Shown in pieces: positions 47,906-64,000 of a DNA stretch of 64,000 bases. Each line of letters starts with the position of its first letter. The stretch's first letter is position 1. The translations under genes and the position numbers were made by a program. Source of the DNA: Amycolatopsis pithecellobii. Lineage in GTDB: Bacteria; Actinomycetota; Actinomycetes; Mycobacteriales; Pseudonocardiaceae. Below the pieces are notes generated by a model that ran no database searches, was not told the DNA's origin, and was given only the letters and a program-made list of their open reading frames with translations. The stretch spans positions 1 through 64,000 of the forward strand of contig NZ_WMBA01000024.1 in NCBI RefSeq assembly GCF_009707865.1, in the 5' to 3' direction.

Positions 47906-48160
47906 ATGACGATGAGCCGTCCTCCGGTGTTTCCGGCGGAGGATAAGATTCGGATCGTATTGAGCGTGCTGTCCGGCGAGATGACGATCGCCGAGGCTGC
48001 TCGGCCGAATACGGTGTCTGAGCAGTCGATCGGCCGGTGGAAGCCCAGTTCTTGGAGGGCGGCCTTGCCGGGATCGCCGAGGGCGGAAAGGCCGGTCCCT
48101 CGAGGCGTGGGGTGCAGTTGCAGTCCCAGATCGACGAGCTGACCACGGCGTTGGGTGAGG
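47906..48160 (+). pseudogene. IS3-type transposase OrfA, frameshifted and truncated
   Basis: From ATG 47906 the frame reads MSRPPVFPAEDKIRIVLSVL, then GEMTIAEAAR and SEQSIGRWK, a typical OrfA helix-turn-helix. At about 48036 the frame shifts by one base, after which the second frame continues MEAQFLEGGLAGIAEGGK and LQSQIDELTTALGEA. No OrfB or second end follows. AGGAGG precedes the start. The element is dead and cut off where the gluconolactonase fragment begins. Confidence 0.8.
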
Positions 48161-48833: not shown

Positions 48834-48857
48834 TGCTATCCGATATAGGATGTAGCA
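48834..48857. promoter_or_regulatory. GntR-type site a, before the first dihydropyrimidinase
   Basis: An imperfect palindrome with outer arms TGCTA and TAGCA; its minus strand contains ATCCTATAT (48851-48843). It lies 34 bases before the ATG at 48891. One of five promoter regions with the shared ATC(C/A)TAT(A/G)T element. Confidence 0.7.
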
Positions 48858-48890
48858 AGTAGGTTCACGAGCTCGGAGAAATGGGGATTC

Positions 48891-50276
48891 ATGTCGTTGG
48901 ACATCGCGATCAGGAACGGCACCCTGGCCACGGCCGACGCGACCTTCGAGTCCGATATCGGCATCTCCGACGGCAAGGTGGTGCTCATCTCGCAGAACCT
49001 GCCGGAGGCCAAGCGCGAAATCGACGCGACCGGCCGCATCGTCGTGCCGGGCGCGATCGACGTGCACACTCATTTCGACCGGGTGCACAGCTGGCACGGC
49101 AAGAAGAACACCGACGACTACGAGACCGGCACCCGTGCGGCCGCGATCGGCGGTATCACCACCGTCGTCAACTTCGCATTCCAGGAGCCGGGCTGGGATC
49201 TGCGGCAGGGCATCGACCACGAACTCGCCCTCGCAGACGGCAACGCGCACATCGACTTCGGGCTGCACACCGTCGTCGCCGACCTGAGTGTCGACGGCAC
49301 GCTGTCGGCGATCAAGTCGGTCGCCGACGAAGGCTACGCCAGCGTCAAGATCTTCACCGCGGTGCCGCATGTCGGGCTCACCGACCCCGAGATCCTCAAG
49401 GTGCTCGAGGTCTGTCGTGACGATGGCGTGCTGGTCAGTGTGCACGCCGAGGACGACCCGCTGTGCAACCACCTCGTGAACCACTACCTCGAAGCCGGCA
49501 AGACACACGTCAGGTACTTCCCGAAGGCTCGTCCGCCGGTCGCCGAGGCGCTGGCCACCGGCCGTGTTGCCGCCTACGCACGTGAGCTGGGCGCGCCGGT
49601 GTATTTCGTGCACCTGTCGTCGCGCAAGGCACTGCAGGAGGTGCGACGTTCGCGCGAGGAGGGCGGCGAAGTCTATGTCGAGACACGTCCGGTCTACCTG
49701 TATCTGGACGAGTCGCGTTACGAACTTCCCGACAACCAGGGCAATCTCTACGTGTGCCTGCCGCCGCTACGGTCCAAAATGGACCAGGAGACGCTCTGGC
49801 AGGGCATGCGCAACGGCGAGATCCAGACCTACGCCACCGACCACGCACCATGGACGTCAAGTCAGAAGCTGGACGCCCCGAACTTCTCGCGGATCCCGGC
49901 CGGCGTCGCCAATGTCCAGACCAGCATCGGCATGCTGTACTCCGACGGCGTGACGCGAGGCAAGATCTCGCTCCAGCAGTTCGTCGCCGTCACCTCCACG
50001 AACCCGGCAAAGCTGTTCGGCATGTGGCCGCGCAAGGGCACGCTCACGCCCGGTGCCGACGCCGACATCGTGCTCATCGACCCGAGACGCGCCGTCGAGC
50101 TGCAGAACGGCGGCCTGGCCTCGAATGTCGACTATGACCCGTACGCCGGCTACCAGGGCGTGGGCTGGCCGGTCATGACCATTTCTCGCGGCGAAATCGT
50201 CGCCGAGGAGGGCCGCATCCTGAGTAAGCCGGGTCGCGGCCGCGTGGTCAAACGCTCCCGGTTCCAGTCGCTGTGA
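48891..50276 (+). CDS. Dihydropyrimidinase/hydantoinase-family cyclic amidase
   Basis: 461 residues. The full binuclear metal site is visible: His59 and His61 (DVHTHF), carbamylated-lysine candidate Lys153 (ASVKIF), His184 (VHAED), His240 (FVHLSS) and Asp316 (YATDHAP). Family members open cyclic amides or imides such as dihydrouracil, hydantoins or phthalimide. It starts a coupled operon with an amidohydrolase and an amidase, suggesting ring opening followed by further amide hydrolysis. A divergent paralog lies at 57.4-58.8 kb. Confidence 0.92.
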   Translation: MSLDIAIRNGTLATADATFESDIGISDGKVVLISQNLPEAKREIDATGRIVVPGAIDVHTHFDRVHSWHGKKNTDDYETGTRAAAIGGITTVVNFAFQEPGWDLRQGIDHELALADGNAHIDFGLHTVVADLSVDGTLSAIKSVADEGYASVKIFTAVPHVGLTDPEILKVLEVCRDDGVLVSVHAEDDPLCNHLVNHYLEAGKTHVRYFPKARPPVAEALATGRVAAYARELGAPVYFVHLSSRKALQEVRRSREEGGEVYVETRPVYLYLDESRYELPDNQGNLYVCLPPLRSKMDQETLWQGMRNGEIQTYATDHAPWTSSQKLDAPNFSRIPAGVANVQTSIGMLYSDGVTRGKISLQQFVAVTSTNPAKLFGMWPRKGTLTPGADADIVLIDPRRAVELQNGGLASNVDYDPYAGYQGVGWPVMTISRGEIVAEEGRILSKPGRGRVVKRSRFQSL

Positions 50277-51280
50277 CGGCCGCGGACGGCGGGTCCGTCT
50301 ACGACTCGCATATGCACTACGTGCCGCGCGCAGCGCTGGCGCAACTCGACGTGCCGGGCATGGAACGGCTCGGCGTGCGTTACGACGCCGAGCTGGACCG
50401 ATTCGTCCGCATCGGCGAGACGCACCAGGGTATCCCGTCGTCACTCCTCGACTTGCAGGATCCGGTCGACGGCGGCGGGCATCCCGTGATTCAGGTGCTC
50501 AGCCCGTGGAGCGACCTGATCCGGGACGACGTGCCGGAACGCGAAGGCGCCGACTGGTGCCGCGTCCTGAACGACGCGGTGTGGCGCGACATCGAGCAGC
50601 GCGCCGGCTTCCGGGCCTATGCGGCGATCCCGATCTCCTCGCCCGAGGTCGCGGCCGAGGAGTTCGAGCGGGCGGTGTCGCTCGGCTTCGTCGGCGGGAT
50701 GATCCCCACGCAGGTCGGCGGTCGGAACCTCGACGATTGGGGCATCGACCCGCTGCTGGAGGTGTCGGAGCGCCTGGGCGCGCCGATCTTCGTGCACCCG
50801 GCTAAGACTTTCGGCCGGGAGCGGTTCATGAAGCACTTCCTGCGGAACATGTGCGGGTACCCGTTCGAGACGACGGTCGCGGCGTTCAGCCTCTTTTTCT
50901 CCGCCGCGTTCGAGCGTTATCCCGGAGCCCGGGTGCTCCTGTCGCACTGTGGCGGCACGCTGCCGTTCCTGGCCGGCCGCGCGGTGCACGCCACCTCCGC
51001 GGTGCCCGATTTCGGCCGGGCCGGGCTGTCGGTGCGCGACATCGTCGAGCCGTTCTTTTTCGACTGCGTGGTCGCGGACCCGGACGCGCTCGCTTTCGGG
51101 CTGGCCGTGGTCGGTCCCGAGCGGATGGTGCTGGGCTCCGACGGTCCGTTCTCGATGGGGCTCGCCGACCCGGTTTCGCAGGTCCGGGAGGCGGCCCGGA
51201 TCGCGGGGCTGGATCCGGAGGCGGTGTTCCGGGCGGTGGCGATCCAGACGCCGGAACGGATGTACGGGGCGGCGGGATGA
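50273..51280 (+). CDS. Amidohydrolase_2 (ACMSD-like decarboxylase or hydrolase)
   Basis: 335 residues from GTG 50273, overlapping the previous stop (GTGA). Metal ligands are complete: HxH in YDSHMHY, His in FVHPAK, His in LLSHCGGTLPFL and Asp in LGSDGPF. The HCGGTLPF and GSDGPF motifs match aminocarboxymuconate-semialdehyde decarboxylase relatives. It should decarboxylate an aromatic or ring-cleavage acid, or hydrolyse one, in the GntR-island pathway. Confidence 0.9.
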   Translation: MTAADGGSVYDSHMHYVPRAALAQLDVPGMERLGVRYDAELDRFVRIGETHQGIPSSLLDLQDPVDGGGHPVIQVLSPWSDLIRDDVPEREGADWCRVLNDAVWRDIEQRAGFRAYAAIPISSPEVAAEEFERAVSLGFVGGMIPTQVGGRNLDDWGIDPLLEVSERLGAPIFVHPAKTFGRERFMKHFLRNMCGYPFETTVAAFSLFFSAAFERYPGARVLLSHCGGTLPFLAGRAVHATSAVPDFGRAGLSVRDIVEPFFFDCVVADPDALAFGLAVVGPERMVLGSDGPFSMGLADPVSQVREAARIAGLDPEAVFRAVAIQTPERMYGAAG

Positions 51281-52680
51281 ACTCCGGCGTGGCCGGACTC
51301 ACGGCCGGCGAGCTGGGCCGCGCCTATCGCGACGGCCAACTTTCGCCGGCGGAGGCGGTGGGTCTCCTCGCGACCAGGATCGAGGAGACCGGCCCCGTTC
51401 TCGGTGCGTTCGCGGCACTGCGTCTGGACCAGGCGATCGACGAGGCGCGGCAACGGTCGGACGAACTCGCCCGAGGCGAGGACCGCGGCCCGTTGCACGG
51501 CATTCCCCTCGGGGTCAAGGAACTCTTCGACGTCGCGGGACTGCCCACGTGCTACGGCTCGGCCGTGTTCGGCAGCCGGGTGCCGGACACCGATGCGAGC
51601 GCCGTGGCCCGGCTGCGGGCGGCCGGCGCCGTGGTCGTGGGCTCGACTCGGTCACACGAGTTCGGGTGGGGGATCACCTCCCAGCACCCGACGCTCGGAG
51701 GTGTCCGCAACCCGTGGGATCTCTCCCGCGTGCCGGGCGGGTCCAGTGGCGGCTCGGCGGCGGCCGTCGCCGCCGGGCTGGTGCCACTGGCCATCGGCAC
51801 GGACACGGGCGGGTCGGTGCGCATTCCGGCGGCCTTCTGCGGCGTCATCGGCTTCAAGCCGACGTTCGGTCGGATCGGACGCCGCGGAGCGATGCCGTTG
51901 GCTCCGTCGCTCGATCATGTCGGCGTCCTCGCGCGTGACGCCAGGGATGCCGCGTTGTGCGCCGGTGCGATGACCGGCGATCCCGGCGAATGCGTGGCCG
52001 GGCAGCCGGCCGCGGTAAGGCTCCGATTCCTGCACCCGCCGGACAGCGAACTCGAAGAACTCGACAGCGATTACCGTTTCGCGCTGACCCGGACGCTGGC
52101 GGTCCTTTCGGATGCCGGCGCCACGCTGCATCCCTACCCGCCGGCGGGCGGACCAGCGCGTGCTGCGTTCGGGCCGATACAGCTGGCCGAGGCGTACCAC
52201 CACCATTCCGAAATCCTGCGAACCTACCCGGTCCTGGCGGCCGCATATGGCGAGGATGTCCGGCAGCGTCTCGTGCTCGGTGCCCGCGTGACACTGCGGG
52301 AATACGTCAACGCGACTTACGAACGACAGCGCCTCACCCGCCGCATCGAAAGGAATCTGGACGGGGTGGACGCCATGATCTCGCCGGTCTCGAGCCGAGG
52401 GCCGGCCTCGGTGCGCGAACCCGATGTGGTCGTCCATCGCGGCAGGCCGGTTGCCTTGCGGGATGTCGTGCTCGGTCACACCGTGCCACAGAACCTGTCC
52501 GGGCTGCCGGCCATCGCCATCTGCGTCGGCGTTGACCGCGCCGGCTTGCCGATCGGTGTTCAGCTGACCGGGGCGAGAGGGCGTGACGAGGCGCTTGTCC
52601 TGCTCGCGCAGCGAGTGGTCGAACTGCTGGCCGCCGCGGGAGGGCAAGGATTCACGGCCCCTACCCTGCCCACAACATAG
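51277..52680 (+). CDS. Amidase signature family enzyme
   Basis: 467 residues. The Ser-cisSer-Lys triad is complete: Lys in IPLGVKELFD near 76, cis-Ser in PGGSSGGSAAA near 152, and nucleophile Ser in DTGGSVRIPA near 176. ATG 51277 overlaps the preceding stop (ATGA). It hydrolyses linear amides, fitting the product expected from a cyclic amidase in the same operon. The substrate cannot be named. Confidence 0.94.
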   Translation: MNSGVAGLTAGELGRAYRDGQLSPAEAVGLLATRIEETGPVLGAFAALRLDQAIDEARQRSDELARGEDRGPLHGIPLGVKELFDVAGLPTCYGSAVFGSRVPDTDASAVARLRAAGAVVVGSTRSHEFGWGITSQHPTLGGVRNPWDLSRVPGGSSGGSAAAVAAGLVPLAIGTDTGGSVRIPAAFCGVIGFKPTFGRIGRRGAMPLAPSLDHVGVLARDARDAALCAGAMTGDPGECVAGQPAAVRLRFLHPPDSELEELDSDYRFALTRTLAVLSDAGATLHPYPPAGGPARAAFGPIQLAEAYHHHSEILRTYPVLAAAYGEDVRQRLVLGARVTLREYVNATYERQRLTRRIERNLDGVDAMISPVSSRGPASVREPDVVVHRGRPVALRDVVLGHTVPQNLSGLPAIAICVGVDRAGLPIGVQLTGARGRDEALVLLAQRVVELLAAAGGQGFTAPTLPTT

Positions 52681-52693
52681 ACGAAATTTTGTA

Positions 52694-52707
52694 CATCATA
52701 TATGATG
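52694..52707. promoter_or_regulatory. GntR-type site b, perfect palindrome
   Basis: CATCATATATGATG, a perfect 14-base palindrome containing ATCATATAT (52695-52703), 31 bases before the amidohydrolase ATG at 52738. Confidence 0.75.
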
Positions 52708-52737
52708 GTAAGAGTTCCGTCGAAAAGAGGGTTCGTC

Positions 52738-53943
52738 ATGGGGTACATCGACATCGACAGCCACGTTCTCGAATGTGACGACACATGGGAGTACTTCGAC
52801 CCCGCCGAACGTGAGCATCGCCCGTTCCAGTTGCGGATGGACACGCAGAAGGTCGGCGGGGCCGGTACTTCGTTCGGCGCGCTTTGGCGCTTGGGCGACG
52901 CATGGTCCGGAGTTTTCCCGCCGGACGCGATGTTGCATGACGGGGCTGGTAACCGGTATGACCCCGATACGGTGACGATGCGGGACCCGTCCCGGCGAAT
53001 CGCCGAACTCGACACCCTCGGCATCGACGTGCAGATGTTGTACACCACGACCTTCCTCACCGCCGGAATGCGACACCCGGTCGCCGAAGCCGCGATCAAG
53101 CGCAGCTGGAACCGGTGGATGGCCGAACGGGTCGCCGACTCCGGCGGGCGGTTCTCCTGGGCAGCGGAAATACCCGTGCGGATGCTCGACCGTGCCGTCC
53201 AGGAGGCGGAGTTCGCCGCTGAGCACGGTGCGAAGGCGGTGCATCTGCATGCCGTCGAAAGCGGTTGCTACCTCGACGATCCCTACTTCGATCACCTGTT
53301 CACGCGGCTGCAGGCCCTCGATCTCACGATCGTCGTGCACATCGCGGCGCCGTTGGCCAGCAGCCGTGCCGTGTTCTCGATAGGGACCGCGTTCCGGAGC
53401 ATGGCACCGTACATGGACCACCTCGCGTCGCCTCTGTCGGCATTCTGGACGGTGCTGGCAACCGATCTCCACAAGCGGTATCCGAAGTTGCGTTTCTTCT
53501 TCAGCGAAGTCGGGGCGATGTGGACGTTCTCGCTCCTGCATCACTGGGAACGGATCAAGGCGAGCCAGTCCGCGGACTTCCGGGTCAGGCGGATCGACCC
53601 GGCGGTGCTGGAGGAGAAGAACATCTTCATCGGCTGCTTCGTCGATGAGGATCTTGCGCTCCTGACGTCGCGGCTGGGCGAGAACGTGCTCGCGTTCGGG
53701 ACCGACTACGGGCACAACGATCTGTCTTCGCAGCTGGGCGGGCATACCGCGATCGTGGAGCGGGACGACATCTCCGCCGGGATCGCGCGCAAGATCGTCG
53801 ATGACAACGGCCGGCGTGCCTTCGGGCTCGATTCGGCGTTCCGGCCGGCCGACTCGATCGAAGCCTCGGCCGAGCTGCCGCACACACGTGCGGTCCAGAG
53901 TGCGGCCGCCGGGGCGCTCGGCGTCGTGAGTATCGGCGTTTGA
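52738..53943 (+). CDS. Amidohydrolase_2 (COG2159 type)
   Basis: 401 residues from ATG 52738 (AAAGAGG upstream; an earlier ATG at 52702 would fall inside the operator). Metal residues are of the DxDxHxxE form (DIDSHVLE), with His in VVHIAAPL, Glu in FFFSEVGAMW and Asp in FGTDYGHND. This subgroup sits in many actinomycete oxygenase clusters and includes decarboxylases and C-C hydrolases; the reaction here is unknown. It heads a short operon with the flavin reductase. Confidence 0.88.
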   Translation: MGYIDIDSHVLECDDTWEYFDPAEREHRPFQLRMDTQKVGGAGTSFGALWRLGDAWSGVFPPDAMLHDGAGNRYDPDTVTMRDPSRRIAELDTLGIDVQMLYTTTFLTAGMRHPVAEAAIKRSWNRWMAERVADSGGRFSWAAEIPVRMLDRAVQEAEFAAEHGAKAVHLHAVESGCYLDDPYFDHLFTRLQALDLTIVVHIAAPLASSRAVFSIGTAFRSMAPYMDHLASPLSAFWTVLATDLHKRYPKLRFFFSEVGAMWTFSLLHHWERIKASQSADFRVRRIDPAVLEEKNIFIGCFVDEDLALLTSRLGENVLAFGTDYGHNDLSSQLGGHTAIVERDDISAGIARKIVDDNGRRAFGLDSAFRPADSIEASAELPHTRAVQSAAAGALGVVSIGV

Positions 53944-53977
53944 CCCCGTGCCGCGAGAGCCGTGATGGAGGTGATGC

Positions 53978-54511
53978 ATGAGCAGGGGATCAGTGCGTGA
54001 CGCGGTCCGGATCACCGAGTGCGACGCGTCGGCCGGCCCGGACTTCCGGCGAGCGATGTCGCGATTCGCGTCCGGCGTCGTCCTGGTCACGGCTCGCGAC
54101 GGTGAAGACCTCGTCGGGATGACGTGTCAATCGTTCACGAGCCTGTCCTTGAAACCGCCGTTGGTCACCTTTGCTGCCGGCCGCGGGTCGACGAGCTTCC
54201 CGCGCCTGTGTGACGCGGGGGAGGTGTGCATCAGCGTGCTGTCCCGGGAACAAGACTGGCTCTCCAGTCAGTTCGCGGTCAGCGGCGGCGACAAGTGGCG
54301 ATCGGTCGGCTGGAGCCCCGGTCGCAACGGCGCACCCCGCGTCAGCGATGCCGTGATGTGGTGCGAGGGCCGGATCGAAATCGTACACGAGGTGGGGGAT
54401 CATCTGCTCGCCATCGTGGCGGTCTCCAGCCTGGCCACCGCCGATGGACCGGTCTCGCCGCTGATCTTCCATGACGGCCGCTATACCGGTCTTCACCATG
54501 CCGCCGGATAA
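53978..54511 (+). CDS. Flavin reductase (FMN-binding split barrel)
   Basis: 177 residues. FRRAMSRFASGVVLVTA near 24-40, MTCQSFTSLSLKPPLVTF, GEVCISVLSREQDWLSSQFA and HDGRYTGL are the usual HpaC/ActVB-like motifs. GGAGGT lies before ATG 53978. These enzymes supply reduced FMN to a two-component monooxygenase. No obvious oxygenase partner of that type is in this island, so the partner may lie outside the window or the gene may serve another reductive role. Confidence 0.92.
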   Translation: MSRGSVRDAVRITECDASAGPDFRRAMSRFASGVVLVTARDGEDLVGMTCQSFTSLSLKPPLVTFAAGRGSTSFPRLCDAGEVCISVLSREQDWLSSQFAVSGGDKWRSVGWSPGRNGAPRVSDAVMWCEGRIEIVHEVGDHLLAIVAVSSLATADGPVSPLIFHDGRYTGLHHAAG

Positions 54512-54525
54512 ACCCAACGGCTACG

Positions 54526-54534
54526 ATCCTATAT
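54526..54534. promoter_or_regulatory. GntR-type site c, before the Rieske operon
   Basis: ATCCTATAT inside an AT-rich stretch, 24 bases before the Rieske alpha-subunit GTG. The left half matches sites a and b; the right half is degenerate. Confidence 0.6.
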
Positions 54535-54558
54535 TATATTTGAACAAGAGGAGGGGTC

Positions 54559-55908
54559 GTGGAACCCTACGTCGTTGACGACATGGAGTCTTCGCGGTTC
54601 GTCGTGCACCGCCGCACGATGACCGACGCCGAGTTGTTCGAGTGCGAGCGCCGACTGGTCTTCGATCGCTGCTGGTTGTATCTGGGCCACGAGTCGGAGA
54701 TCCGCGAGCCTCACTCGTTCCAGACCCGGACCCTCGCCGGCCGACCGCTGCTCATGCTCCGCCAGGCCGACGGCCGCGTCGCCGCGTTCATCAACTCCTG
54801 CACCCACCGCGGCGCCCCTGTGTGCAAAGAGGCCTCGGGCAAGAGCAAGTTCTTCCGCTGCTTCTACCATTTGTGGACCTTCGACACGACCGGCGCGCTC
54901 GTGAACGTCCCGGACGAGGAGTCGTACGGCGACACGCTCGACAAGCGCGCACTCGGGCTCGTGCCGGTGCCGCGGCTCGAGGCGTACCGCGGGTTCGTGT
55001 TCGTGTCGTTCGACCCGGCGATCGAGCCGCTGGCCGACTACCTGGGGCCGGCCGCGGATTACCTGGACCTGGTCGCGAACTCCGCCGAGACCGAGGTCGA
55101 GGTCATCCACGGCACGCATGGCTGGGGCGCCAGGGCGAACTGGAAGATGATGGTGGAGAACAGCATGGACTCCTACCACGTGCCGTTCGGACACAAGCGC
55201 TACCTCGACGCCATCACCTCGGCCGGGGTCACGTTCAAGCCCGCGGACGCGAAGTCCTCGGGCGGGTACGCGGCGAAAGCCGGGGGCTACGTCCAGGATC
55301 TCGGGCACGGCCACACTGTCACCGCGGGCGCGGGCGGCGGTTTCGGGCGTCCGGCGAGCGAGGTGGTCGAGGCCAAGCTGCGGGCGCGCCGCGAACGACT
55401 CGAGGCACTCCACGGCGCCGACTACGTGCACAGACTGCACGCGGGCCCACGCAACTGCTTCATCTTCCCGAACCTGTTCGTCATCGATTTGGTGATGGGC
55501 ACGACGGTGCGCCTGATCGACCCGGTGTCGGTGAACCAGATGCGGATCACCGGCTGGATGGTTGCGCCGCGCGACGAGGACCCCGATCTGCGCCAGTACC
55601 GTCTCGACAACTCCCTCGGGTTCTGGGGTCCGGCCGGCCTCGCCAGCCCCGACGACGTCGAGATCGTGGAGAGCTGTCAGGTCGCGTGCGAAGGTGCCGC
55701 GAACGAGCTGGGCTGGATCCAGAACTCGCGTGGGATCACCCGCGAGTCCCCGCTCGGTGTGGACGAGTACCAGATGCGCACGTTCTGGCGCCGCTGGAAT
55801 CAGCTGGTCACCGGCACCGAGCCGAAGGCCGAGAAGCACACGGTGACCTCGACCTTCCAGCTCGCCCAGCCGGAGTCCACCGAGTTGCGCGCGGCGGCCT
55901 GCCGATGA
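54559..55908 (+). CDS. Rieske non-heme iron oxygenase, alpha subunit
   Basis: 449 residues. Rieske centre Cys81, His83, Cys101 and His104 (CTH...CFYH). The catalytic iron site is Asp204, His207 and His212 (DSYHVPFGH), with DNSLGFWGP and the following Asp pair near the C-terminus. The length and the downstream beta subunit indicate an aromatic ring-hydroxylating dioxygenase of the benzoate/biphenyl-like group, giving a cis-dihydrodiol or hydroxylated ring. GTG 54559 follows AGGAGG. The stop overlaps the beta-subunit start. Confidence 0.95.
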   Translation: MEPYVVDDMESSRFVVHRRTMTDAELFECERRLVFDRCWLYLGHESEIREPHSFQTRTLAGRPLLMLRQADGRVAAFINSCTHRGAPVCKEASGKSKFFRCFYHLWTFDTTGALVNVPDEESYGDTLDKRALGLVPVPRLEAYRGFVFVSFDPAIEPLADYLGPAADYLDLVANSAETEVEVIHGTHGWGARANWKMMVENSMDSYHVPFGHKRYLDAITSAGVTFKPADAKSSGGYAAKAGGYVQDLGHGHTVTAGAGGGFGRPASEVVEAKLRARRERLEALHGADYVHRLHAGPRNCFIFPNLFVIDLVMGTTVRLIDPVSVNQMRITGWMVAPRDEDPDLRQYRLDNSLGFWGPAGLASPDDVEIVESCQVACEGAANELGWIQNSRGITRESPLGVDEYQMRTFWRRWNQLVTGTEPKAEKHTVTSTFQLAQPESTELRAAACR

Positions 55909-56405
55909 CAACGACGATCTCCGACGGCGTCGAGCTGCACTACCGCGTGGAGCGGTTCCTGTACGGCGAGGCCGAGCTCCTCGATGCCTGGCGGCTGCGT
56001 GACTGGCTGAAGCTTTTCACCGAGGACGCGCGGTACACGGTGCCGGCCACAGACCTCGCGGACCCCGACCCGGTCCACGATCTGTATCTGCTTAACGAGG
56101 ACTACGGCCGCCTCAAGGAGCGGGTCGATTCATTGCTGGGTAAGTGGGCGCACGCCGAGAACCCGGTTTCGACCACCCGGCGAGTGGTCACCAACGTCCG
56201 GGTGCGGCCCGACGGCGAGCACCTCGACGTCCGGGCCAACTTCGTCGTCTACCGCGCCCGTCGCGGTGCGAGCGACACGTACATCGGCGAGTACCGCCAT
56301 ACCCTTCTTTCCCTGCCGGACGGGACTTTCCGGTTCGCATCCCGCAGCGCCGTGCTGAGCCACGAAAACCTCTGCGCCCAGGGCAAGCTCAGCATCATCC
56401 TATGA
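55905..56405 (+). CDS. Rieske oxygenase, beta subunit
   Basis: 166 residues, SnoaL-like fold of small oxygenase subunits: VERFLYGEAELLDAWRLRDWLKLFTEDARYTVP near 14-46, then RVVTNVRV and LSVPDG-like turns, ending HENLCAQGKLSIIL. Coupled to the alpha subunit by ATGA and to the reductase by ATGA. It should form an alpha3beta3 hexamer with the alpha subunit. Confidence 0.93.
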   Translation: MTTTISDGVELHYRVERFLYGEAELLDAWRLRDWLKLFTEDARYTVPATDLADPDPVHDLYLLNEDYGRLKERVDSLLGKWAHAENPVSTTRRVVTNVRVRPDGEHLDVRANFVVYRARRGASDTYIGEYRHTLLSLPDGTFRFASRSAVLSHENLCAQGKLSIIL

Positions 56406-57379
56406 CGACAAAGGGACTCGATATGCCGTCCGGCGAGCACTGCCGCGACCTGGTGGTGACGGGGCGCGTACAGACTGCCGAGCGGGTCGTCGCCCTGACC
56501 ATGGAGGACCCGGCCGGCTGTCCGTTGCCGGACTGGACGCCGGGCGCGCACGTCGACCTCCTGCTCGAGGGCGGCACGCTCGTGCGGCAGTACTCCCTGT
56601 GCGGGGCACCGGATGACCGGCAGCGCTGGCGGCTGGGTGTGCTGGACGAACCCGGCGGCCGGGGCGGTTCGCGCCGCGTTCATGAGAGCGTGCACATCGG
56701 TGATCGCGTGGCCGTCCGCGGGCCGCGCAACCACTTCGAACTGGTACCGGCGGCGCGCTATCTGTTCGTGGCGGGCGGCATCGGGATCACCCCGATCCTC
56801 CCGATGATCGCGGCGGCCGAGGCGGCAGACGCGCAGTGGCGGCTGCACTATGGCGGGCGCAGCCGAGCGGCGATGGCGTTCCTCGGCGAAGTCGAACGGT
56901 ACGGGGACCGGGTCAGTGTCCGGCCCATGGACGAGCAGGGGCTCCTGCCGTTGGCGGAGATACTCGGCACCCCGTCCCCCGGAACGCTGGTGTACTGCTG
57001 TGGCCCCGAAAGCCTGCTGCTCGCCGTCGAGGAGTCCTGCGCGGCGTGGCCGCCAGGCTCCCTGCACGTCGAGCGATTCGCCCCCCAACAGCCGGTCGAG
57101 CCGTCGAACGACACCGCGTTCGAGGTGGAGTGCCGCCGGTCCGGGGTCACCGTAGACGTCGGGCCGGGACAGACGATCCTGCAAGCGCTCAAGGCGGCCG
57201 GAATCGGCGTCATGACCTCGTGCGAAGAGGGCATCTGCGGCACCTGTGAGACCCGCGTCCTCGACGGTATTCCGGAGCATCGCGACTCGGTGCTGGACGA
57301 GGCGGAGCAGGCCGCGAACACCTGCATGATGATCTGTGTCGGCCGTGCGAGGACTCCGCGACTGGTGCTCGATCTCTGA
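56402..57379 (+). CDS. Phthalate-dioxygenase-reductase-type electron carrier (FMN, NAD, 2Fe-2S)
   Basis: 325 residues. FMN-binding RQYSLCG near 61, NAD motif GGIGITPILPM near 125, and a C-terminal plant-type 2Fe-2S domain with CEEGICGTC and a later Cys in CMMICVG. This order (flavin-NAD-FeS) is the PDR/VanB class. It should feed electrons from NADH to the Rieske oxygenase encoded just upstream, completing a two-component system. Confidence 0.95.
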   Translation: MTTKGLDMPSGEHCRDLVVTGRVQTAERVVALTMEDPAGCPLPDWTPGAHVDLLLEGGTLVRQYSLCGAPDDRQRWRLGVLDEPGGRGGSRRVHESVHIGDRVAVRGPRNHFELVPAARYLFVAGGIGITPILPMIAAAEAADAQWRLHYGGRSRAAMAFLGEVERYGDRVSVRPMDEQGLLPLAEILGTPSPGTLVYCCGPESLLLAVEESCAAWPPGSLHVERFAPQQPVEPSNDTAFEVECRRSGVTVDVGPGQTILQALKAAGIGVMTSCEEGICGTCETRVLDGIPEHRDSVLDEAEQAANTCMMICVGRARTPRLVLDL

Positions 57380-57398
57380 GCAACCTCAGCCATGGCGG

Positions 57399-57418
57399 GC
57401 AGCGGTCTAGACCGCTGC
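57399..57418. terminator. 20-bp perfect palindrome between convergent genes
   Basis: GCAGCGGTCTAGACCGCTGC, perfectly symmetrical with no loop, starts 19 bases after the reductase stop and spans the TAG stop of the minus-strand dihydropyrimidinase. Likely a shared terminator or a protein-binding site. Confidence 0.5.
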
Positions 57419-58795
57419 GCCTTGCTGAGTCGCCTGGAGGAACCGGCCTCGCCCGGGGCTGCTCAGCAGCTGGCCGTCGGAGGCGACGACCTCACCTCCG
57501 GAGACGGTGACGACCGGCCAGCCGACGAACTCCTGCCCTTCGAAGAGATCGAAGTCGGCACGCGACGCCAGGACGTCCGACCGCACGGTGAAGCGGCGTG
57601 CCGGGTCGATGAGCACGATGTCCGCGTCGGATCCGACGGCGATCGTTCCCTTCCGCGGCCACAGCCCGAAAATCCTGGCGGGGTTGGTCGCGGTGAGCTC
57701 GACGAAGCGTGACAGCGAGATGCGGCCCTTCCGCACGCCCTCGGCGAAGAGCATCCCAACGCTCGTCTGGACGTTCGACACGCCCGCGGGGACCTCGGGG
57801 AACGGGAGCTCTTCGCGTCCTTTCTGCGCGGCCGTCCATGCCACATGGTCGGTCGCGTAAGTGTCGATGTCCCCACTCCGGAGGCCATGCCAGAGCGCCT
57901 CTTGATCGGCGGGGGTCCGCAATGGGGGGAGACACACGTAACGCTGCGCCTCGGTGACCGGCAACGAGTATCTGGTGTCGTCAAGGAACAGATACAGGGG
58001 GCGGGTCTCGATGAAGGCGCGAGTGCCCGCGCGCCGAGCCCGGAGCGCGGCACGTACGCCCGCTTCCGACGACAGGTAGATGAAGTAGACCGAAGCACCG
58101 GCGGCCCGCGCGTAGACGCCGATCTCCTCGACGGCCAGTGCTTCCGCCACCGCGGGGCGGGCTGACGCGTAATGGGCGACGGAACTACGGCCCGACTCCA
58201 GGGAACGGCTGGTCAGGTGCGTGCACAACGCGTCGTCCTCCACGTGCACATTGACGATCAACCCGGTCTCGGCCGCTACCTCGAGCACCCGCAACAGGTC
58301 CCTTTTCGGGAGGAGGTACGGCGCGAGGCTGGTGAACACCTTGATGCTCGCCTGACCGCGGGAACGGAGCCGGCGAATCTGCCCGAGTGAATCGGGAACG
58401 TCCAGGTCGGTCACGGCAACGTGGAAGCCGTAGTCGATGTGCGCCATGCGCGCCAGTTCGAGCTCCCGGCCGATGGCCGTGTCGAGGTCCTCACCCGGGC
58501 GCTGGAACGCACAGTTGAGAACGGTCGTGACCCCGCCGAGTAACGCGGCGCGGGTCCCTGCCTCGTAGTCGTCGACACTCCGCGTCCGGGAACGGGCCGA
58601 ATAGATGGCGAAATGCGTGTGCGGATCGATCGCACCGGGGACGACAACGAGGCCGGACGCGTCGATGTCGGTGGTGCCCGGTGTCAGCCTGGCCGCGACC
58701 GCGGCGATCCGACCACCGTCGATGCCGATGTCGGCGCGGATCGGCCCGCCGCCGGTCACCACTGTTCCGTTGCGGACCGTCATCTCGTGGCTCAC
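57407..58795 (-). CDS. Dihydropyrimidinase-family paralog lacking one metal His
   Basis: 462 residues from GTG 58795 (AGGAG six bases upstream). Aligned by position with the paralog at 48.9 kb it keeps His59, His61, Lys152, His184 and Asp316, but the metal ligand His240 is Tyr (FIYLSS in place of FVHLSS). An altered or single-metal site is expected, so it may act on another ring, work poorly, or have a non-hydrolytic role. It is divergent from gntR and shares site d with it. The reading frame stays open upstream of the GTG, but that part lacks protein-like conservation. Confidence 0.9.
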   Translation of the reverse strand: MSHEMTVRNGTVVTGGGPIRADIGIDGGRIAAVAARLTPGTTDIDASGLVVVPGAIDPHTHFAIYSARSRTRSVDDYEAGTRAALLGGVTTVLNCAFQRPGEDLDTAIGRELELARMAHIDYGFHVAVTDLDVPDSLGQIRRLRSRGQASIKVFTSLAPYLLPKRDLLRVLEVAAETGLIVNVHVEDDALCTHLTSRSLESGRSSVAHYASARPAVAEALAVEEIGVYARAAGASVYFIYLSSEAGVRAALRARRAGTRAFIETRPLYLFLDDTRYSLPVTEAQRYVCLPPLRTPADQEALWHGLRSGDIDTYATDHVAWTAAQKGREELPFPEVPAGVSNVQTSVGMLFAEGVRKGRISLSRFVELTATNPARIFGLWPRKGTIAVGSDADIVLIDPARRFTVRSDVLASRADFDLFEGQEFVGWPVVTVSGGEVVASDGQLLSSPGRGRFLQATQQGAAV

Positions 58796-58837
58796 GTTCC
58801 GCTCCTGGTGGTCGCCTGATACGGAAGATCGTGTGGC

Positions 58838-58846
58838 ACATAGGAT
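58838..58846. promoter_or_regulatory. GntR-type site d, between the paralog and gntR
   Basis: ATCCTATGT on the minus strand, 43 bases from the dihydropyrimidinase-paralog start and just over 100 bases before gntR. A 22-codon frame (ATG 58854 to TAA 58922) lies between the site and gntR; its ribosome site is weak. Confidence 0.6.
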
Positions 58847-58951
58847 ATGGGACATGGATAAGCGTGACAAGATGTTCCTCGGGCGCCGTGTCGACCTCGG
58901 CCCGGCGGGTAACGCCCGGTAAGGTTGAGGCAGTCGAAAGTGGAGATCGAA

Positions 58952-59707
58952 ATGCCTGACAGGGTGCGTACACGCCCGCAGTTCGCTCAGCGGCCGCGGC
59001 TGAGTGACGAGGTCGCCTCGTATGTTCGGGACCTCATCATGACCGGGGAAAGCCGGCCAGGGGACGCCGTCAACATCGACTCTCTCGCCCGTGACATCGG
59101 CGTCAGCGCGACGCCGGTGCGGGAGGCGCTGATGCGCCTCGAGAGCGAGGGATTCTTGATCGCCGAGCAGAACCGGAGCTACACCGTCGCCCCGCTCACG
59201 CGGGAAGACATCGAGGATCTTTTCGCGAATCACGCGCTGATCGGTGGCGAGCTCGCGGCACGGGCGGCGAAGCACGTAACGCCGGCGTTCCTCGCCGACC
59301 TCGAGCGGTTGCAGGCCGAGATCGAGGCGAGCCTCGGCCGTCAGGACTTCGTCGCCGCCAGTGCGGCCAACAACCAGTTCCACGATGCGATCGTCAACCG
59401 GTCGGGGTCCACCAAACTCGCCTGGTTGTTCAACATCGGGGTCAAGTTCGTGCCGCGGAGCCTGTTCTATCCGGAGAACCCCAAGCCCGCCCGCCGGGGT
59501 GGCAAGAAGCATGTGTCCGTCGACGACCACCACGGTGTCCTGGACGCGATGCGGGCAGGAGACGCCGAGAAGGCGCGCGACGCGATGAGCGCCCATGTCT
59601 CACATGTCAGCAAGATCCTCGTCGAGTACCTGGAAGGCATCGGGTTCTGGGCGGAGGACGACGACTCGCCGGCGGGCAAGACCACACCGGCGCGAAAGAA
59701 ACGCTGA
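58952..59707 (+). CDS. GntR-family regulator (FadR/FCD type)
   Basis: 251 residues from ATG 58952 (GGAG six bases upstream). N-terminal winged HTH (RLSDEVASYVRDLIM, SLARDIGVSATPVREALMRLESEGFL), then the all-helical FCD domain (DLFANHALIGGELAA, FHDAIVNRSGS, HHGVLDAMRAGDAEKARDAMSAHV) with its metal/acid-binding histidines. The five ATC(C/A)TAT(A/G)T sites of the 48-60 kb region are its probable targets, including one in its own promoter region. FCD regulators usually respond to small carboxylic acids. Confidence 0.95.
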   Translation: MPDRVRTRPQFAQRPRLSDEVASYVRDLIMTGESRPGDAVNIDSLARDIGVSATPVREALMRLESEGFLIAEQNRSYTVAPLTREDIEDLFANHALIGGELAARAAKHVTPAFLADLERLQAEIEASLGRQDFVAASAANNQFHDAIVNRSGSTKLAWLFNIGVKFVPRSLFYPENPKPARRGGKKHVSVDDHHGVLDAMRAGDAEKARDAMSAHVSHVSKILVEYLEGIGFWAEDDDSPAGKTTPARKKR

Positions 59708-59835
59708 ACCATCCCGGGGTGCCTGGCGCCCCGTCTCTTCTCGTACCGGCCGCCGAGGCAGGCTGATCAGCGACGCGCGCAGTCGCATGTGGACAGTGCT
59801 GACGACTGGGCGACGGCTTGTCGCCTGCTGTCACA

Positions 59836-59850
59836 GCATATATGATATGC
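59836..59850. promoter_or_regulatory. GntR-type site e, before the ABC importer
   Basis: GCATAT-ATG-ATATGC, a 15-base inverted repeat whose minus strand contains ATCATATAT, 35 bases before the binding-protein ATG at 59886. Confidence 0.75.
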
Positions 59851-59885: not shown

Positions 59886-60908
59886 ATGACCGTGCGAGTC
59901 AACGGGCCCAACAGGGCGACCAGCACCGGCCGCGCGCGTCTCCTGGCTGCTGTCGCGGGAGCGGTTGTGGCACTGTCGCTCACGATCACCGCATGCGGTT
60001 CGGACAGTACGGCGGACGACGGGAACTCCGGCCCGCTCAAGATCCGGGTCGCCTACGGGCCCGGGTTCGGGTCGCTGCCGGTGGTCATCGCCGCGGAGAA
60101 GGGATACTTCAAGGCCAACGGCCTCGACGTCACGTTGACCGAAGGACTCGACCTGGCCGCGTATCTCGGCGCGCTCGGTGCGCAATTCGACGTCGTGATG
60201 GGGCTGCCGCCCGGAATTCTCCAGGCGTCCGGTCGCGGAGTAGCGCTGACCGTTATCAGCGGGCTGAACCGGACCGACGCGGCACACGTCAACAATCCGG
60301 TTCTCACCAAGGACGCGACGATCAAGAGCGCAGCGGATCTGGCTGGAAAGACTGTGGGCGTTCCCACCCTGACCGGGATCAGTGCGGACGCCGTGCGCTA
60401 TGTGGTCCGTCAACAAACGGGTAAGGACGTCAAACTGGTACAGGTTCCCCCGGACGCGATGGCGGACCAGATCACGGCCGGGCGAATCGATGCGGCGGTG
60501 TCGGCAATTCCCTACTTCACCGGCGTCGAGTCGCGCGGGATCCGTGTCCTCGACGATGTCGTGATCCAGGCCGTCAAACTCGCCACCGGCAACAAGGACG
60601 ACAGTGCGTTGCTCGGCGCCTTCATAGCGACACCGTCCTATGTGGACAAACATCCCGAGGTTGCCACGGCCTGGCGAAAATCGCTGCAACAAGGCGCGGA
60701 CTTCATCGCCGCGAACGAGAAGGAAGCGCGGGCCATCCTCCAGCAGCACGCGAAACTGCCCGCGGCCGTTGCCGCGAATGCGCCGTTGCCGAACTTCGTG
60801 GCCACGACGAGCGCGGCGGACTTCCAGCCCTTCGTCACGATCGGCGAGACGATCGGATCGTTGCGGAAGACGCCCGACCTCGGCACATTGATCCACCAGG
60901 AGAAGTAG
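59886..60908 (+). CDS. ABC importer substrate-binding lipoprotein (NMT1/SsuA type)
   Basis: 340 residues. Signal peptide and lipobox TITACGS (Cys near 37), then a type II binding fold: IRVAYGPGFGSLPVVIAAEKGYFKANGLDV, FDVVMGLPP and DLAGKTVGVPTLTGI. The family binds sulfonates, taurine, thiamine pyrimidine and aromatic acids. ATG 59886 follows a purine-rich site. It should deliver the pathway's starting compound to the permeases. Confidence 0.94.
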   Translation: MTVRVNGPNRATSTGRARLLAAVAGAVVALSLTITACGSDSTADDGNSGPLKIRVAYGPGFGSLPVVIAAEKGYFKANGLDVTLTEGLDLAAYLGALGAQFDVVMGLPPGILQASGRGVALTVISGLNRTDAAHVNNPVLTKDATIKSAADLAGKTVGVPTLTGISADAVRYVVRQQTGKDVKLVQVPPDAMADQITAGRIDAAVSAIPYFTGVESRGIRVLDDVVIQAVKLATGNKDDSALLGAFIATPSYVDKHPEVATAWRKSLQQGADFIAANEKEARAILQQHAKLPAAVAANAPLPNFVATTSAADFQPFVTIGETIGSLRKTPDLGTLIHQEK

Positions 60909-61741
60909 TGGCTTCCGAGACCGGATCCGAGGTAGTGGACGCCCGCCGCGTGGCCGGTGTGCCGCCGTCGCACAGCAGCCTTGCGTACCGCGTCGAGAAC
61001 ATGAGTGTCGAGCTCATGTCCGCCGACGGGCCGCGGCAGATCCTCCGCGATGTCAACTTCACCGTGGGCGCCGGTGAGATCGTGGGAATCGTGGGCCGGT
61101 CCGGGACGGGCAAGACGACGCTGCTTCGCGTGCTGGGTGGCATGGTGCGTGCGTCCAGCGGGCTGGTCGAGCTTCACGGCCGCGCGGACAATCTGCCGGG
61201 GACCGTCGTCACGGTGTTCCAGGACTACGGGAACGCCCTGCTGCCGTGGCGCTCGGTGGCGCGCAACGTCAGTCTCGGGATCGAACGCGGGCTCGGCCGC
61301 GCGGAGCGTGAGCAGCGCGTTGCCGATGTGCTCCGGCTGGTGGGTCTCGAGGGCCGGAGCAGTGACCATCCGTGGCAGTTGTCGGGCGGTATGCAGCAGC
61401 GGGTGCAAATCGCTCGTGCTCTCGCCGTGGAGCCACGGGTTCTGCTGATGGACGAACCGTTCGGCGCGCTCGACGCGATCACCAAGGCGACATTGCAGGA
61501 CGTGCTGCTTCGGATTCAGGCGCAGACCGGTGCGACAACGATCTTCATCACCCATGACATCGACGAGGCGATATACCTCAGCGACCGCGTGTTCGTGATC
61601 GCCGGCTCACCTGGCTCGCTGATCGTCCAGGAACCCGTCGACCTGCCGCGCCCCCGTACCCAACTGGAAACCCGCGAGCATCCCCGGTACCTGAGCGTGC
61701 GGCACGCGCTCGCCGAGGCGCTCAGGGAGGAGACCGCATGA
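60908..61741 (+). CDS. ABC importer ATPase (SsuB/TauB type)
   Basis: 277 residues from GTG 60908, overlapping the preceding stop by one base. Walker A GRSGTGKTT near 63, Q-loop FQDYGNALLPW, signature LSGGMQQRV, Walker B VLLMDEPFGALD and switch His in ITHDIDEA are complete. Drives uptake together with the two permeases that follow. Confidence 0.96.
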   Translation: MASETGSEVVDARRVAGVPPSHSSLAYRVENMSVELMSADGPRQILRDVNFTVGAGEIVGIVGRSGTGKTTLLRVLGGMVRASSGLVELHGRADNLPGTVVTVFQDYGNALLPWRSVARNVSLGIERGLGRAEREQRVADVLRLVGLEGRSSDHPWQLSGGMQQRVQIARALAVEPRVLLMDEPFGALDAITKATLQDVLLRIQAQTGATTIFITHDIDEAIYLSDRVFVIAGSPGSLIVQEPVDLPRPRTQLETREHPRYLSVRHALAEALREETA

Positions 61742-62532
61742 CGAGAACGCACTCGCTTCCCGGGGCGGCCAATCCGGTGGGAGTCGCCGTCGTGGTCGTG
61801 GCGATCGTGATGTGGCAACTGCTCGTCGCACTCAGAATCCTCGATTATTCTTTCCTGCCTTCGGCAGGCGACGTCGGCGGCGCACTGTGGCAACTCGCGC
61901 GGTCCGGTGAGTTGCTCGACAGCGTAGGACACACCCTCCTGGTCACACTTGTCGCTTCGGCGATCGCCATCGTGATCGGCGTCGCCGCGGGCCTGGCACT
62001 CGGCATGCTGCCACTGGTCCATACCTTTTCGATGGCATCGGTGGACTTCTTCCGGACCCTTCCGGTCACGGCCATGATTCCGGCCATTCTGCTCGTGTGG
62101 GGGCCCACGGCAGAGGCGGAGATCATCGCCGCGACCTATGCCGCCGCCTGGCAGATCGTCGTGAACACCACCGGGGGTGTCCGCGCCACGCATCCCCGGC
62201 TGCTCGACGTGGCGCGGACCTTCGGGCTCACCAGGGAGCAAACCGTGCGGAAGATCGTGCTTCCGGCGGCGATGCCGGCCATTCTCGTCGGCGCCCGGCT
62301 CGCGATCGTGAGCGCGCTGGTGGTGGCGATCGTGGCCGAGATGCTCATCAATCCCGCCGGCTTGGGCTGGGGTCTGGTGCAGGGGCAACAGGCGCTGCAG
62401 CCCGGAGTCACCTGGGCCTACGCCGTCACGGCCGGGATTCTCGGCTACCTGCTCAACGCCGGGCTGATGTGGGCGGCCCGGCGAATGCCAGGGGGCCGCG
62501 TGCCATCGTCTTCCGGAACGAGTGCGGCATGA
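61738..62532 (+). CDS. ABC importer permease 1 (SsuC type)
   Basis: 264 residues, about six membrane segments. The EAA-like loop is seen in LLDVARTFGLTREQTVRKIVLPAAMPAIL, the contact site for the ATPase. Starts in an ATGA overlap with the ATPase and ends in an ATGA overlap with permease 2. Confidence 0.95.
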   Translation: MTRTHSLPGAANPVGVAVVVVAIVMWQLLVALRILDYSFLPSAGDVGGALWQLARSGELLDSVGHTLLVTLVASAIAIVIGVAAGLALGMLPLVHTFSMASVDFFRTLPVTAMIPAILLVWGPTAEAEIIAATYAAAWQIVVNTTGGVRATHPRLLDVARTFGLTREQTVRKIVLPAAMPAILVGARLAIVSALVVAIVAEMLINPAGLGWGLVQGQQALQPGVTWAYAVTAGILGYLLNAGLMWAARRMPGGRVPSSSGTSAA

Positions 62533-63308
62533 CCACCGCCGTGCCGCGGCGACAGTCCCGGGTGCGTGGGGCCTTCGTGTTCGGACTTCTGCCGCTCGCC
62601 GTTCTGCTCGGGTGCTGGCAATTTTTCGTGCCGGCGGACTCGCGTGCCTTCCCGCCACCCAGTACGTGGCCGGGCGCGCTGGCGGAGTTATCCGCCGAGG
62701 GGTCGTTGATCCCCGCCGTGCGAACGACGCTCGTGACGTTCCTGCTGGCGCTCGCGGTCGCGACAGTGCTCGGAACCGCGTTGGGAATGCTCATCGGGTC
62801 CTCTCGACGACTCGAGCGGCCGCTCACTCCGGTCATGGACTTCTTCCGGACTCTTCCACCGCCGGCCATGGTGCCCGTGCTTGCGCTGCTGCTCGGCACG
62901 AACACCTCGATGGCCGTGACGGTCGTGGTCCTCGCGTCGCTGTGGCCGATCCTGCTCAATACCGCGAGCGAGCGGCGGAATGTGCCACCGGTCCGGATGG
63001 AGATGGCCCGCTCCCTGGGACTCCGTTGGTCCGAGCGCGTTTTCAAGGTGCTGCTGCCCTCGCTCGCGCCAGGGATCATGCTGGGGGTGCGGGTGGCAGT
63101 GTCGATCGCGCTGATCGTGACCCTGCTGGTCGACATTCTCGGCACCGGTGAAGGCATCGGCCGCGAACTCATGCTCGGGCAGCAGTCCTTCAAACCGGCG
63201 ACGGTCTGGGCCCTGCTGCTGGTGATCGGCGTCTTCGGCTACCTGCTGAACGGTGCTGTGGCCGCCGCCGAGAACCGGTTGATGCGCAAGTGGGGAAGGC
63301 GGCGCTGA
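62529..63308 (+). CDS. ABC importer permease 2 (SsuC type)
   Basis: 259 residues, about six membrane segments, with EAA-like loop RMEMARSLGLRWSERVFKVLLPSLAPGIM. A paralog of permease 1; two different permeases imply a heterodimeric pore, unusual for SsuC-type systems, which mostly use one. ATG 62529 overlaps the preceding stop. Confidence 0.94.
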   Translation: MTTAVPRRQSRVRGAFVFGLLPLAVLLGCWQFFVPADSRAFPPPSTWPGALAELSAEGSLIPAVRTTLVTFLLALAVATVLGTALGMLIGSSRRLERPLTPVMDFFRTLPPPAMVPVLALLLGTNTSMAVTVVVLASLWPILLNTASERRNVPPVRMEMARSLGLRWSERVFKVLLPSLAPGIMLGVRVAVSIALIVTLLVDILGTGEGIGRELMLGQQSFKPATVWALLLVIGVFGYLLNGAVAAAENRLMRKWGRRR

Positions 63309-63347: not shown

Positions 63348-64000
63348 ATGGGACGGCTGGACGGCAAGATCGCTTTCATTACGGGTGCGGGTCGTGGGCA
63401 GGGGCGCTCGCATGCGGTCCGCCTCGCCGCCGAGGGGGCCGGCATCATCGCGGTCGATATCTGCGCGGATGTCGAAACAGCGCCATACGCGTTGTCGTCC
63501 TCGGACGACCTGGCCGAAACGGAACGCTTGGTGACCGCGGCGGGCGGTCGCATTGTCACCCGGCCTGCCGACGTGCGGGACTCGGCGCAGCTGGCGTCGG
63601 CACTCTCGGCGGGGCTCGACGAGTTCGGCCGGCTCGATGTGGTGTGCGCTGGGGCGGGCATTTTCACCCGGCCGAGACTGACCTGGGAGATGTCCGACGA
63701 CGAATGGCAGCAGACGATCGATGTGAACCTGACCGGCGTCTGGCGCACGGTCAAGGCGACCGTGCCGTTCATGATCGAGCAAGGGACCGGCGGATCGATA
63801 GTCATCACGAGTTCCTCGGCGGGATTCCACGGCTTCCCGCACTTTTCGCAGTACGCAGCCGCCAAGCGAGGGCTGGTGGGGCTGATGCAAAGTCTGGTGC
63901 GCGAACTCAGTCCACATAGGATCCGGGTCAACACCGTCCATCCGTCCGGTGTGGACACTCCCATGATTCATTTCGAGGAGCTTTACCGGCTTTTCCTTCC
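63348..64000 (+). CDS. Mycofactocin-linked-type SDR (3' truncated)
   Basis: 217 codons to the window end. AAGGAG lies before ATG 63348. [20 protein letters not shown] near 13-32, then [20 protein letters not shown]: the insertion after strand 2 and the RGQGRSHA loop are marks of the mycofactocin-dependent SDR subgroup, whose NAD is held tightly and recycled by mycofactocin. Catalytic Ser in TSSSAG and Tyr/Lys in QYAAAK are present. It follows the importer by about 40 bases and could act as dihydrodiol or alcohol dehydrogenase for the Rieske product. The end lies outside the window. Confidence 0.88.

Follow-up and report, generated by a model that had tools for sequence, protein, structure and literature searches.

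We examined the first 64,000 nucleotides of an Amycolatopsis pithecellobii contig (NZ_WMBA01000024.1; hereafter the window), for which an earlier note, made from the letters alone, had claimed that a single 9-base motif, ATCMTATRT (M, A or C; R, A or G), marks the promoter regions of five transcription units controlled by one GntR/FCD regulator. Unit 1 (48891–52680, + strand) encodes a D-hydantoinase/dihydropyrimidinase-like protein, an ACMSD-like amidohydrolase-2 and an amidase; unit 2 (52738–54511, +) an amidohydrolase-2 and a flavin reductase; unit 3 (54559–57379, +) the alpha and beta subunits of a Rieske oxygenase with a Fer2/NAD-binding reductase; unit 4 (57407–58795, −) a second hydantoinase-like protein, divergent from gntR; and unit 5 (59886–63308, +) an ABC importer composed of an NMT1/SsuA-type binding protein, an ATPase and two permeases, after which comes a short-chain dehydrogenase gene. 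Measured against the NCBIfam D-hydantoinase cut-off, one of the two hydantoinase-like enzymes scores above and the other just below. The gntR product (58952–59707, +; recognition helix SATPVREAL) matches PF00392 at 53.5 bits (cut-off 27) and PF07729 at 70.9 bits (cut-off 24.3), and so belongs to the FCD-type GntR family.

The motif lies exactly where it had been reported, on the strands reported (48843–48851, 52695–52703, 54526–54534, 58838–58846 and 59838–59846), and the idea that a single site is common to the starts of five transcription units survives testing, with site centres 30–48 bases upstream of the start codons. As putative operators the five are S1 (48843–48853, +; ATATAGGATGT), with its centre 43 bases before unit 1; S2 (52693–52703, −; ATATATGATGT), 40 bases before unit 2; S3 (54524–54534, −; ATATAGGATCG), 30 bases before unit 3, the Rieske operon; S4 (58838–58848, +; ACATAGGATAT), in the gap that separates unit 4 from the divergent gntR; and S5 (59838–59848, +; ATATATGATAT), 43 bases before unit 5, the importer operon. 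That several would sit in perfect or near palindromes is borne out in full for two, S2 overlapping a perfect 12-mer palindrome (ATCATATATGAT) and S5 lying within a perfect 6-3-6 palindrome (GCATAT-CAT-ATATGC on the other strand), while the other three are imperfect.

Frequent occurrence in unrelated intergenic regions, which the earlier note had named as the result that would count against a regulon, was looked for with exact and mismatch patterns across the genome and with a matrix on the contig and control stretches, and was not found. Exact matches number 7 in the window, where shuffling predicts 0.13 and none of 100 shuffles gives as many as 7. The whole genome, 7,899,446 bases in 144 contigs, has only 16: eight on this contig (1 at 65865 besides those in the window) and the remaining eight scattered one each over eight other contigs. 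Two of the window matches had not been listed: the 52695 palindrome read on its second strand, and an exact 9-mer at 63914–63922 that falls inside the short-chain dehydrogenase coding sequence rather than at a promoter and is probably a chance match. The FCD repressor Atu1419 of Agrobacterium fabrum is, in the accessible part of its description, reported to bind a second, degenerate site within a gene (PMC7797058). A 13-base pattern drawn from the aligned sites, CATATAKGATRTR, has 8 genomic matches at 0–1 mismatch, 7 of them on this contig and representing 6 distinct sites, and 55 at up to two mismatches compared with 36 for the pattern read backwards, counts that are partly circular because the pattern was built from these same sites. 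We also read the eight off-island 9-mer matches in their context; one, C51:85805, lies inside a reading frame whose translation looks peptidase-like by eye.

The contig extends to 102,271 bases, and scanning past the window end added three sites outside the stretch that had defined the motif: S6 (65863–65873; exact), between divergent amidohydrolase-2 and short-chain dehydrogenase genes; S7 (69033–69043; one mismatch), before another amidohydrolase-2 gene; and S8 (75351–75361; one mismatch), within the 42 bases that separate divergent CoA-transferase and IclR genes. The regulon therefore appears larger than the window, continuing about 11 kb past its end to give a predicted co-regulated cluster of about 27 kb, in which dienelactone-hydrolase-like, 2-oxoacid dehydrogenase and CoA-transferase genes lie beyond the window. 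Among gene gaps of at least 40 bases between 48.7 and 75.4 kb, as delimited by a simple gene caller, 8 of 11 carry a site, including all four divergent gaps; the three without one (53944–53992, 66654–66750 and 70725–70766) all lie between genes read in one direction, and earlier alternative gene starts, if correct, would bring the first two under the 40-base limit. Past 76.2 kb a 766-base gap has no site. The contig scan at one mismatch returned further matches, five of them outside the regulon stretch (36808, 38657, 97314, 98017 and 100362). Beside S6, a second, weaker motif-like stretch (GAGAATATGATATTG, 65847–65861, score 15.3) possibly makes a double operator with it. The IclR gene at 75369, which also carries a site, means that GntR is not the sole regulator of the co-regulated set, so the description of GntR as the island's only regulator holds inside the window and fails beyond it. 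Overall, the original observation is real and its interpretation is supported as largely right, with a wider regulon and a second regulator in the set.

Aligned on one strand, the eight cores (ATATAGGATGT, ATATATGATGT, ATATAGGATCG, ACATAGGATAT, ATATATGATAT, ATATATGATGT, ATATATTATGT and GTATAGGATAT, in the order S1 to S8) give the consensus RYAT-AKG-ATRT, with 2 to 4 of the 4 arm pairs complementary. Each site was then held out and scored with a matrix built from the other seven over 203,714 other contig windows and 171,748 control windows, a strict control because the control stretches surround the off-island 9-mer matches. Five of the eight sites outrank every other window and all eight fall within the top dozen of about 375,000; the exceptions are S8 (no better window on the contig, one in the control), S4 (one and one) and S3, the weakest (five and six).

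Site centres lie 13–49 bases from the start codon at 10 of the 11 unit starts served by the eight sites, a spacing that would also suit a promoter element, either a −10 region or the site of an alternative sigma factor, common to these units. AT-rich −10-like sequence is expected at such a distance, and in all but one of the 11 gene directions the core region shares bases with a TANNNT hexamer. This overlap is weak evidence because the motif is itself AT-rich, and a repressor site would show it too. We consider a promoter element very improbable, given that the motif occurs only 16 times in the genome, that its orientation relative to the gene is mixed, that two of the sites are perfect palindromes and that the 9-mer recurs beside homologous gntR genes but not, in exact form, beside control regulators, as follows.

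To the sites' predicted binder, the island's own GntR/FCD protein acting on them as operators, we assign a probability of roughly 0.8; independent support for it as the likeliest candidate comes from such sites beside some of its homologues elsewhere. The regulator was searched for in overlapping sets of 150, 390 and 396 genomes and the remaining listed matches were fetched, yielding 62 homologue loci at 35–43% identity in 15 clusters at 60% identity. In the 330 bases before the homologous gntR, our definition of the upstream region, the exact 9-mer occurs at 8 of 62 loci and in 4 of 15 clusters, and it is absent from the remaining 218 kb of these loci. No pattern among 3,000 permutations of the same composition reaches 4 clusters and one reaches 8 loci, while shuffled upstreams give a mean of 0.08 matches and a maximum of 2. 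Two control families, an own-genome GntR family with arginine at the key position (Arg-type) and IclR homologues, have no exact 9-mer upstream (0/30 and 0/27), and with up to one mismatch the count is 15/62 for GntR homologues against 2/30 and 1/27. The pattern read backwards was tried as a control, giving 2 exact matches and 14 at up to one mismatch compared with 8 and 22 for the motif; it was replaced by permutations, shuffles and other families because it overlaps the quasi-palindrome and was itself enriched upstream.

Gene order was read around seven homologue loci, of which L076 gave no usable gene calls and L063 has one-mismatch sites only. In the other five (L028, L034, L039, L058 and L091) the site stands between gntR and a called gene running the opposite way, as S4 (58838) does here; that gene encodes an enoyl-CoA hydratase in L028 and L091 and, by our reading, a luciferase-like protein in L039. 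Choosing the best-conserved AT-rich upstream 13-mer in five clusters without using the motif recovered AAATATATGATCC in one and, tied with others, ACATATAATATAT in another; the remaining three gave no support (GTGGTATCAAGTT, 19 loci; ATTCGTCGACAAT, 4 loci; and the poorly conserved TCTATAGAATCGG, 18 loci). A palindrome finder restricted to AT-richer matches found nothing in 19 upstreams (16 homologues and 3 own paralogues). Separately, CTATGGGATATAGGATGGC is kept upstream of the homologous gntR in three genomes of one genus (L034, L035 and L036), with an acyl-CoA dehydrogenase gene on the divergent side in L034, the only one of the three whose neighbours were read; this arrangement is a simpler relative of the GntR switch and suited to bench work.

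Since an IclR gene belongs to the extended set, both it and GntR were tested as the binder. If the sites belonged to the IclR regulator, with GntR controlling something else, the position of S8 would fit, its centre being 13 bases from the IclR start codon within the gap shared with the CoA-transferase gene. Two IclR genes, at 75369–76196 and 80883–81617, lie about 5 kb apart and are 67% identical, yet the second has no site in its 330 upstream bases by eye and none in the contig scan; together with the contrast between IclR and GntR homologues above (exact 9-mer upstream of 0/27, one with one mismatch, against 8/62), this leaves us thinking IclR a most unlikely owner of the sites. Less credible still is recognition of AT-rich spots by some unlinked regulator or by an AT-binding nucleoid protein of the Lsr2 type. 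The genome does hold 35 matches to the GntR protein, itself included, and its nearest paralogue (36%) is encoded about 11 kb away from an off-island match on contig 81, but the motif is sequence specific, as the permutations beside GntR homologues indicate (0/3,000 at its cluster count), and adjacent operons are the usual targets of local regulators.

The island GntR protein also departs from its family at the residue expected to read DNA. In the accessible part of a study of the FadR subfamily, the operator consensus consists of TKGT/ACMA boxes around a mostly 3-base centre, with exceptions within the family that include NanR and BioR, and Arg35 and Arg45 of FadR touch guanines (PMC4494728). 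By the equal-length −8 offset of the alignment rows, and taking the chain numbering of 6z74 as the paper's, Ala53 of GntR falls on position 45, the place of the Atu1419 and FadR Arg45; the arginine usual, if not universal, in FCD regulators is missing here and in all 62 homologues, which have Val (35), Ala (11), Gln (8), Pro (6) or Asn (2). The TKGT/ACMA (GT-N3-AC) boxes, likewise usual but not universal, are also lacking, none of the eight 15-base cores holding GT-N2-3-AC by eye, and an operator without such boxes may follow from a regulator without the guanine-reading Arg45. The simplest reading would be that this subclade keeps the operator layout and drops the guanine contact. We extend this only tentatively, at somewhat less than even odds, to the whole FCD subclade (mostly S[V/A/Q/P/N]TPVRE[A/G]L, without Arg45), which would have switched from the GT-N-AC code to a guanine-less ATAT half-site of the same layout. 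The opposite half of such a residue rule gains no support, since neither spaced form of the GT-N2/3-AC boxes occurs upstream of the Arg-type control regulators (0/30). In a literature search for the four 9-mers, a single paper among those listed contained any of them, and it concerned mitochondrial tRNAs.

Several observations weigh against GntR as the binder or against its supposed mode of recognition. Most homologue loci (54 of 62) and clusters (11 of 15) have no exact 9-mer upstream, the loci counted are related by descent, and set against the Arg-type control by itself the locus-level difference is borderline (Fisher p 0.0498 for exact matches and 0.048 at one mismatch; 0.006 when both controls are pooled). 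A close orthologue did not turn up in the other genomes searched (best about 44%), which ruled out direct footprinting of the regulator's own sites. The off-island C51 window, at a matrix score of 17.8, comes near S3 and S4 (18.1–18.5), and with the S4 centre 109 bases from the assumed gntR start, the case for gntR autoregulation is weaker than that for control of the gene on the other side. Finally, if the −8 offset holds, Asp43 of GntR occupies the FadR Arg35 position, where an Asp is described, in the part of the FadR-subfamily study available, as preferring a G/C rather than an A/T pair (PMC4494728).

The closest known systems share some of these features. Atu1419 is described in the available text as a VanR-group FCD repressor of hydroxycinnamate degradation, and shares with our regulator an aromatic catabolic cluster and several short palindromes, some of its own overlapping −10 boxes (PMC7797058). 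Candidate metal residues in GntR (N140, H144, H193 and H215), compared by spacing, match the spacings of 4 and 22 in Atu1419 (N137/H141 and H192/H214), with a middle spacing of 49 here against 51 there (PMC7797058). Unlike here, where Ala53 faces an ATAT/ATRT core, the Atu1419 operator ATGTATACAT needs a G: Arg45 reads G3, and a G3/C8 to A/T change abolishes binding (PMC7797058). Escherichia coli McbR/YncC (PDB 4p9f) is by sequence the best solved relative; it too has no Arg at position 45 (SITPVREAL), and an ATATAT motif is reported for it in the accessible text (PMC13343897), while the motif studied here is, unlike that of McbR, concentrated in one gene cluster. With FadR, PdhR and LldR the regulator shares a GntR winged helix-turn-helix, an alpha-helical ligand domain and a short palindrome with a 3-base centre, but not their TKGT/ACMA boxes, as far as the part of the study available describes these (PMC4494728).

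We envisage that a GntR dimer would bind the short quasi-palindrome RYAT-AKG-ATRT in a 4-3-4 layout, covering the promoter of each unit or the very start of its transcript, and would thereby repress it. A pathway substrate or intermediate, probably a carboxylate sitting in the metal site of the FCD domain, would make the protein leave the DNA and switch on every stage together: import, opening of an imide or hydantoin-type ring, hydrolysis of the amide, dioxygenation by the Rieske enzyme and the later CoA/2-oxoacid steps. Judging from the gene families, our guess is that the pathway breaks down a cyclic imide or hydantoin bearing an aromatic ring; the papers listed by a literature search for a phthalimide-type gene cluster were unrelated. 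Searches for close relatives of the Rieske subunit gave at best about 44% in plasmids and, at E 1e-130 among 394 searched, this genome alone, which made operon-level footprinting impossible. Just upstream of the first regulon unit, a short frame at 47909–48073 matches a transposase helix-turn-helix (PF01527, E 4.9e-06), and the 766-base gap after the IclR gene at 75369–76196 holds a broken transposon-like frame with no Pfam match; the regulon may lie between mobile-element remnants.

A local catabolic regulon is of a known kind; its operator is unusual. To our knowledge, FCD regulators are very numerous and most are without known sites. An operator is here proposed for an uncharacterised GntR/FCD regulator, and the outline of some 27 kb of catabolic genes predicted to be regulated together helps to confine the search for the pathway substrate. 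The work also offers a testable residue-to-base rule, in which loss of Arg45 would go with loss of guanine from the half-site. Were the subclade switch true, the motif reported for E. coli McbR would be a distant instance of it, and eight promoter regions across about 27 kb would carry an address that is almost unique in a genome of 67% GC.

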